The translations under genes were made by a program, and so were the position numbers. DNA of 38,499 nt from an uncultured Pseudomonadales bacterium (GTDB taxonomy: Bacteria; Pseudomonadota; Gammaproteobacteria; Pseudomonadales; Azotimanducaceae), in the NCBI GenBank assembly GCA_938017975.1, contig CALIKQ010000046.1, forward strand, positions 1-38,499. Direction: 5' to 3'. Position 1 is the first letter of the stretch. Each line of letters starts with the position of its first letter. Below the pieces are notes generated by a model, which was not told the DNA's origin, searched no databases, and saw nothing but the letters and a program-made list of their open reading frames with translations. This document shows, piece after piece, positions 18-5,131 of this stretch.

Positions 18-518
18 ATGGCCAACGATGCATCACCGTTTCAAATCACATCCGTTCCAGGAGGCTTTCAACTTGGGTTCGAAGTCCGGGCTGTCAAGGG
101 TGAGGGTCAGGTCAAAAAGGCGCAGTTCGGCCATTTTGAAATCCTGTGTGACGAAGGTATAAATCTTGGAGGCGCCGACAGCGCGCCACCGCCTCTGGCT
201 TACTTTGCAGCATCGATTGCATTTTGAATGCTGACTCAGCTTGCTCGGTCGAGCGAGGCAAAAAAGATTGTGCTCAACGATGCATCAATGAAGGTGTTTC
301 CCCGTTTTGAACAAACCGGATCGATTCATGCGGGCACGATAGAAAGTCGGCTTTTAGAGGTAGAGACAGAACTTCATATTGACTCAACTGCACCCAAGGC
401 AGAGATCGAAGCGCTGGTAACACTCGCCGAGCAAATGTGCTTTTTGATGGATGTGATTAGGGAGCCCCACGAGGTTCGCCATCGGACGTCGCTCAACGGT
501 GAGCGATTGACCGGGTAA
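18..518 (+). CDS. Selenocysteine-containing OsmC-family peroxiredoxin
   Basis: OsmC/Ohr proteins reduce organic hydroperoxides in the cytoplasm with a pair of thiols. Two open segments lie in one frame, separated only by TGA at 225-227; read through, they give one 166-residue OsmC-like protein. The first segment ends in GGADSAPPPLAYFAASIAF and the second begins MLTQLAR. In this subfamily the junction normally reads F-C-x-x-T-Q-L, so the TGA falls exactly on the redox cysteine and would be Sec70. The second thiol is present as Cys141 (AEQMCFLMDV). A SECIS-like hairpin follows the TGA. The start is ATG 18 with AAAGGA seven bases upstream. The gene is convergent with the lipoprotein gene. OsmC-like selenoproteins are known from marine metagenome surveys. 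SelA, SelB, SelC and SelD must be encoded elsewhere. A nonsense mutation is the alternative, but position, frame and hairpin all argue against it. Confidence 0.9.
225..259 (+). promoter_or_regulatory. Bacterial SECIS element after in-frame UGA
   Basis: The stem pairs 240-246 (CTTGCTC) with 251-257 (GAGCGAG), seven contiguous pairs with one G-U wobble. A G239-C259 pair extends it past a bulged G258. The apical loop is GGTC at 247-250, with 19 nt between UGA and loop. Known bacterial SECIS rules are a small loop with G in the first two positions, 16-37 nt after the UGA. The GGUC loop matches the SelB-recognised loop core of E. coli fdhF. Confidence 0.88.
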
Positions 519-4462: not shown

Positions 4463-5131
4463 GTGCTTTCGGTTTGTATTGATTTTAAAAGCCCCTACGC
4501 ATTCGTTGCCCATGCCTTAATTTGGGAGCTTGAGACCAAGCACGGATTTTTAATTGATTGGCAGCCGCTGACTTTGAACATTGGCAGTTTCTTAGGAACG
4601 GCTGAAAAGAGCGAGCAAGGGACCGTGGTTGCAACCAATCGCTCCGAAAAACAGTGGACGGTTGTTAAAGCTGCCTATCGCGACGCTCGGCGTTATGCGG
4701 TTAACCAGCAGCGCATGCTTCGAGGGCCGCTAAAGATCTGGGATTCTTCTCTGGCCGGGATCAGCTTGATCTGGGCCCAGCAGAGAGCGGGAGAACGCGC
4801 AGACTTAAAACATTATATGGACATGGTGTTTACCCAGTTTTGGCAGCGAAAATGCGATCTCGAAGATGCCAAAGTACTCGTCGAATACCTCAAAGCAGCG
4901 GCCATTAGTACCGTTGGGTTTACCGACTATCTCGAAGGCGAAGGTCGCGAGAATCACGATCGACTACAGAGCCAGTTGTTGGATCTAGGGGTCTTTGGTG
5001 TTCCTTCCTTTTTGGTTGAAGATGAAATATTTTTCGGACGAGAGCACCTGGATACGGTTCTTTGGCGGTTAAAAGGTAGCCATGGCGAGATGCCATTTCT
5101 GCGATTTCCCTGGTTACCGGAGCAGGGTTGA
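4463..5131 (+). CDS. 2-hydroxychromene-2-carboxylate isomerase / DsbA-fold protein
   Basis: The 222-residue protein has the DsbA-like thioredoxin fold of HCCA isomerases and kappa-class GSTs. After the first strand it shows DFKSPYAF (Ser10-Pro11-Tyr12), the family's glutathione-activating serine in place of the CxxC of disulfide oxidases. The cis-proline loop is VFGVPSFLVEDEIFFGREHL (Pro181), followed by the HCCA-typical C-terminal helix. It is therefore likely a glutathione-dependent isomerase or transferase on an aromatic or quinone-like substrate; the true substrate is not visible. The start is GTG 4463, just after GAGGAG; the ATG two bases upstream is in another frame. It overlaps the next gene by one base and the two are probably co-translated. 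Confidence 0.85.
   Translation: MLSVCIDFKSPYAFVAHALIWELETKHGFLIDWQPLTLNIGSFLGTAEKSEQGTVVATNRSEKQWTVVKAAYRDARRYAVNQQRMLRGPLKIWDSSLAGISLIWAQQRAGERADLKHYMDMVFTQFWQRKCDLEDAKVLVEYLKAAAISTVGFTDYLEGEGRENHDRLQSQLLDLGVFGVPSFLVEDEIFFGREHLDTVLWRLKGSHGEMPFLRFPWLPEQG

Follow-up and report, generated by a model that had tools for sequence, protein, structure and literature searches.

A gene with an in-frame TGA in an uncultured Pseudomonadales bacterium very probably encodes an OsmC-superfamily selenoprotein

Known relatives and the interrupted reading frame

The Sargasso Sea data published in 2005 (PMC1088965) yielded 3 OsmC-like selenoproteins having selenocysteine (Sec) in a UxxT motif, 5 sequences from the Global Ocean Sampling (GOS) data followed in 2008 (PMC2398784), and reviews from 2022 (PMC9312934) and 2026 (PMC13188914) list such proteins. 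A first-pass annotation of the DNA studied here had described such proteins as rare and mostly metagenomic. The two marine papers describe them from metagenome sequences. With two papers, two reviews, and a dedicated NCBIfam model, NF041052 (OsmC-related (seleno)protein), the family is less exceptional than that description implies. In the open literature that we searched, judged by titles and abstract openings, there was no experimental study of an OsmC selenoprotein. The organic hydroperoxide peroxidases (Ohr) belong to the same superfamily; the Xylella enzyme has Cys61, Cys125, Arg19, and Glu51, with a catalytic triad made up of the peroxidatic Cys, Arg19, and Glu51 (PMC5962072).

The window, i.e., the whole stretch of DNA that was analyzed, comprises 38,499 nucleotides beginning at the first base of a contig from an uncultured Pseudomonadales bacterium, whose 96.5%-complete assembly we refer to as the host genome (G000). 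On the forward strand, an OsmC-like gene occupies positions 18-518, with an ATG at 18, a TAA stop at 516-518, and a TGA at 225-227 as the sole in-frame interruption. Reading through the TGA gives a protein of 166 residues with the proposed Sec at residue 70, in the motif U-M-L-T (UxxT). The standard code would instead end the product at residue 69, and the gene would look broken to an annotator. A weak ribosome-binding-like stretch, GGAT, is found at 8-11, 6 bases 5' of the ATG. Since the contig starts only 17 bases before the gene, its promoter and upstream neighbor are outside our view.

The read-through product was matched by Pfam OsmC over residues 52-154 (42.9 bits, cut-off 27.5) and by NF041052 over residues 22-161 (148.2 bits, cut-off 95). 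Both matches span the TGA, which bears out the earlier proposal that two in-frame segments and one TGA together form an OsmC protein. The frame, with its single internal TGA, was likewise recovered when the whole genome was searched for Pfam OsmC. Elsewhere in the window TGA is an ordinary stop codon: it ends 9 of 30 open reading frames, picked by judgement from the 47 listed after excluding 17 overlapping ones, and TGG is used 164 times in the same 30. We listed the other window frames having an internal TGA and judged them by eye, and none resembled a split gene.

The protein has in common with the known family the Sec in UxxT, a SECIS-like hairpin just after the UGA, and homologues with Cys, and we found nothing in the accounts given by these sources (PMC1088965, PMC2398784, NF041052) that sets it apart. 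We regard it as a welcome addition to a family whose use of selenium was already established rather than as a new kind of protein. Our analysis adds the genomic setting in the host, a look at the second cysteine, and the lack of the Ohr glutamate. In particular, it places the family in an assembled genome that has both selD and tRNA-Sec, within a genus that commonly encodes selA and selB. Taken together with the mechanism of Sec insertion outlined below, we consider it very probable that positions 18-518 encode an OsmC-superfamily selenoprotein, which is the best explanation of the locus.

Conservation of the TGA and of the sequence around it

Relatives of the gene were sparse. The NF041052 cut-off was passed in 4 of 58 genomes searched (host included), with exactly one internal TGA in G000, G023, and G032 and with Cys in G020. 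None of the 14 congeners had an OsmC selenoprotein gene above this cut-off. An order-wide sample of 390 genomes gave five matches above it, namely the host with its TGA and four genomes without an internal stop, two of which (G300 and G020) were read and had Cys. We also searched with a degenerate DNA pattern that covers the TGA and itself demands TGA at that codon. It matched five stretches in named genomes, and each encodes a read-through OsmC protein. Two are taken to belong to genomes of the host's family, namely G032 (Proteobacteria isolate casp150-mb.316) and G023 (an uncultured Pseudomonadales bacterium), and the other three are records labeled Dehalococcoidia, Chloroflexi, and Candidatus Dormiibacterota; the bins thus span three phyla by their labels as deposited. 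Hence, six genomes including the host carry TGA at the same codon. All six aligned members match NF041052, and identity with the window protein is 67, 58, 39, 39, and 30% for the other five. Degenerate peptide patterns searched against genome and viral contig collections found no relative, and the DNA pattern over the TGA had 0 matches in viral contigs. Two further internal-stop matches below the cut-off, in G033 (TGA) and G034 (TAA), were rejected because frame reading showed the Cys to be intact and the stop to lie near the protein end.

We compared the proportions of nonsynonymous (pN) and synonymous (pS) differences on either side of the TGA. Between G000 and G023, pN/pS values were 0.24/0.85 before the TGA and 0.21/0.77 after it, and between G000 and G032 they were 0.33/0.74 and 0.29/0.86. 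Among the three Pseudomonadota genes, pN was equally low after (0.21-0.29) and before (0.24-0.33) the TGA, with synonymous sites near saturation. Translation of the second half would be expected to keep pN this low. In comparisons of the Pseudomonadota with the two Chloroflexi-labeled genes, pN rose from 0.36-0.41 before the TGA to 0.43-0.53 after it, still below pS, whereas between the two Chloroflexi-labeled records it fell from 0.11 to 0.07.

A SECIS-like hairpin of 6 bp lies at 241-256 on the forward strand, with the apical loop GGUC at 247-250 and 19 bases between the TGA and the loop. It is present at the equivalent place in 48-base folds of all six genes. GCUC-GGUC-GAGC is identical in the three Pseudomonadota genes, and only one loop base differs in the two Chloroflexi-labeled genes, though their proteins are 39% identical to the window's. 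The Dormiibacterota gene has a different sequence that folds at the same place, shifted by one base. In a fixed register across the six genes, 91.7% of cells pair, versus 36-44% when the register is slid. The covariation count is not independent support because all changes on both sides of a pair come from the Dormiibacterota row, which itself breaks three pairs when held to that register.

By folding energy, the hairpin of the window gene is not exceptional (z of -0.24 over 51 bases, with 75 of 200 shuffles as stable), and a 60-base fold replaces it with another structure. Against synonymous recoding, p was 0.023 for the window gene and 0.089, 0.088, 0.030, 0.017, and 0.097 for the others; Fisher's combination of the six gives 2.2e-4, a value overstated because the sequences are related. 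Scanning along the window gene, 2 of 136 windows had a lower z than that of the hairpin. Rfam at a permissive threshold returned just three snoRNA matches over the hairpin region, at chance level (E of 3 to 7.5). Over eight chosen hairpin codons, pS was 0.47 for both G000-G023 and G000-G032, and between G023 and G032 it was 0 versus 0.80 downstream. Comparisons with the Chloroflexi-labeled genes ranged from 0.18 to 0.73, including the pair of G000 with the record labeled Chloroflexi, which at 0.73 showed no drop; these values come from few sites.

Selenocysteine machinery in the host and its genus

The first-pass annotation had predicted that the host encodes SelA, SelB, SelD, and tRNA-Sec, and would have been contradicted by a genome devoid of Sec machinery or by relatives with another stop codon or a frame break at this place. 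We found selD and tRNA-Sec in the genome and, as described above, the same TGA at this codon in related genomes. The host SelD, encoded on the minus strand of contig C24 (8814-11078; 272 bits, cut-off 125), is part of a fusion protein that begins with a pyridine nucleotide-disulphide oxidoreductase domain at its N-terminus. In G003 and G023, frames of 757 and 754 aa, respectively, have a start similar to that of this SelD fusion.

About 1.5 kb from the SelD gene, on the same strand (C24:7248-7340), lies a tRNA with a UCA anticodon. Its Rfam score of 45.8 bits is below the cut-off of 47, and at gathering level Rfam returned nothing in the 20 kb around it. At E <= 0.001, the same Rfam search had matches in 14 of 14 control genomes (above the cut-off in 5), presumably mostly to other tRNAs. 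Since the Rfam match alone is not specific, the case for tRNA-Sec rests on the anticodon, conservation, and arms. An identical 93-base tRNA occurs in 9 of 15 genus genomes searched, the main flank alignments of which are 68-81% identical to G000, and selA is present in six of these nine (G002, G005, G007, G008, G010, and G012). We therefore regard it as the tRNA-Sec that functions in this genus. Two further variants exist, one in G006 and one common to G001 and G013. In the structure drawn from G000, 29 of 29 proposed pairs hold in the three variants and 10 pairs are changed on both sides; the test comprised four rows, two of which (G001 and G013) have one and the same sequence. The tRNA was drawn with 7+5 acceptor/T arms (8+4 being possible) and with its D arm in the tRNA-Sec form, a 6-bp stem with a loop of 4 bases. 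The loci returned for G009, G011, and G014 contained no tRNA-Sec. For this genus, a curated Rfam cut-off would miss a tRNA scoring just under it.

Neither selA nor selB was found in the host assembly; sub-cut-off selB matches are taken to be EF-Tu, IF-2, and similar factors. Above cut-off, selA was present in 10 and selB in 9 of 14 congeners, and G012 has a selB fragment at a contig edge. In G003 (8 contigs, 93%) we also found neither gene, with the identical tRNA-Sec kept and the SelD-fusion-like frame nearby. The congener gene order is lolCDE-like, PilZ-like, apbE-like, D-cysteine desulfhydrase-like, lipoprotein-like, selA, and selB, where all names other than selA and selB are our reading of the frames. 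Two selAB neighbors were tested, and neither has a close copy in G000 or G003: the best match of the D-cysteine desulfhydrase-like gene in G000 was 34% identical, and the gene downstream of selB had no match in G000, being likewise absent from G003, G004, G006, and the 98%-complete G010.

A lineage that had recently lost selA and selB, leaving the gene as a relic read by leaky termination or its UGA decoded by an unknown route, would account for the lack of both genes and of the two neighbors in G000 and G003. Yet host contig C9 ends within the last of four successive genes that are 73, 60, 76, and 82% identical to genes in G014 situated about 10 kb before selA's place, a link that comes from this one congener. 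In G014 itself, the lipoprotein-like gene preceding selA's place runs into a contig end, and the gene following selB's place is met at the start of another contig. Contig edges also come close to selB in other congeners, dividing the gene between two contigs in G008, truncating it in G012, and lying about 340 bases away in G010. The tRNA-Sec, moreover, is unchanged. Because C9 stops in conserved gene order short of the selAB place, an assembly gap is favored over loss, which we regard as very unlikely; the counterweight is G003, where both genes are missing from an assembly of just 8 contigs. Of the predicted machinery, selD and tRNA-Sec were found, and from the gap and the congeners we infer that the organism also has SelA and SelB.

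A pseudogene, or a TGA arising from sequencing or assembly error, would likewise be suggested by a stop inside the frame of a gene at a contig edge, in an assembly where selA and selB were not found. Either is highly improbable given the same-codon TGA in five other genomes and the low nonsynonymous change after the stop in the three Pseudomonadota genes. One might also propose that a recoded genome or a suppressor tRNA reads UGA as Trp, Ser, or Gly, considering that the acceptor and T arms of the tRNA(UCA) also fit the 7+5 pairing seen in ordinary tRNAs. However, 7+5 tRNA-Sec has been published, Gammaproteobacteria included (PMC5330540), and the D arm of this tRNA can be drawn in the form typical of tRNA-Sec. 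The identical molecule also occurs in six congeners with selA, and TGA terminates 9 of the 30 chosen window frames, leaving recoding exceedingly improbable.

Redox residues and likely function

The TGA had been placed at the redox cysteine of an F-C-x-x-T-Q motif. The position holds, in that the homologue column has Cys, while the motif is only approximate: Cys homologues read F-C-L-M-T-H or, in PDB 3cje, G-C-V-M-T-Q. Cys141 (codon 438-440, forward strand), earlier put forward as the kept partner of Sec70, is indeed invariant in the six aligned members. In a profile alignment, residue 70 and Cys141 align with two Cys in the five chains displayed, comprising three Ohr, PDB 3cje, and PDB 2onf, and the alignment with Ohr puts Cys141 at the resolving position. 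The OsmC-like 3cje is the best solved profile match (65 bits) and has the APPPLA segment and both cysteine places in common with the window protein, differing in having Cys where the latter has Sec.

The window protein similarly has both cysteine places in common with Ohr, one of them as Sec. In contrast to the catalytic Glu of Ohr chains (Glu51 in Xylella), it has Leu60 (codon 195-197, forward strand), a residue that all six Sec members share. PDB 3cje and two homologues with Cys (G300 and G020) have Leu there as well, implying that absence of the Glu characterizes the branch and does not result from Sec. With an invariant Leu aligned to the catalytic Glu, Ohr activity cannot be taken for granted. 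The N-terminal part aligns weakly with Ohr, so that the position of the catalytic Arg (Arg19 of the Xylella enzyme) has no firm alignment. An OsmC-family Sec enzyme lacking the Ohr catalytic Glu is a checkable biochemical point.

In the mechanism that we propose, SelD would produce selenophosphate, and tRNA-Sec (UCA) would be charged with Ser that SelA then converts to Sec. SelB, on the hairpin directly 3' of the UGA, would bring Sec to codon 70. The Sec70 selenol, at the peroxidatic Cys place of Ohr/OsmC, would be the attacking nucleophile, and Cys141 may act as the resolving thiol; the resulting Sec70-Cys141 selenenylsulfide would be opened again by a thiol reductant. Both the insertion of Sec and this Sec-Cys redox cycle are what we infer from the genes and alignments. 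Judging from sequence, the protein's job is most likely the thiol-dependent reduction of a peroxide or another small electrophile. More tentatively, the Sec-OsmC branch might be an enzyme in its own right and not an Ohr-type peroxidase, as the Sec/Cys pair is kept and the triad Glu is absent, and its gene, along with the SECIS hairpin, might have been transferred between Chloroflexota and Pseudomonadota; we consider this combined proposal possible and somewhat doubtful.

Two further host genes were noted. A DSBA-like thioredoxin-domain gene with a GTG start and a frame without internal stop lies at 4463-5131 of the window, 4 kb from the OsmC gene. The host genome also has a second OsmC-family gene (C37:48830-49123), which has an ordinary Cys and a frame uninterrupted by stops.
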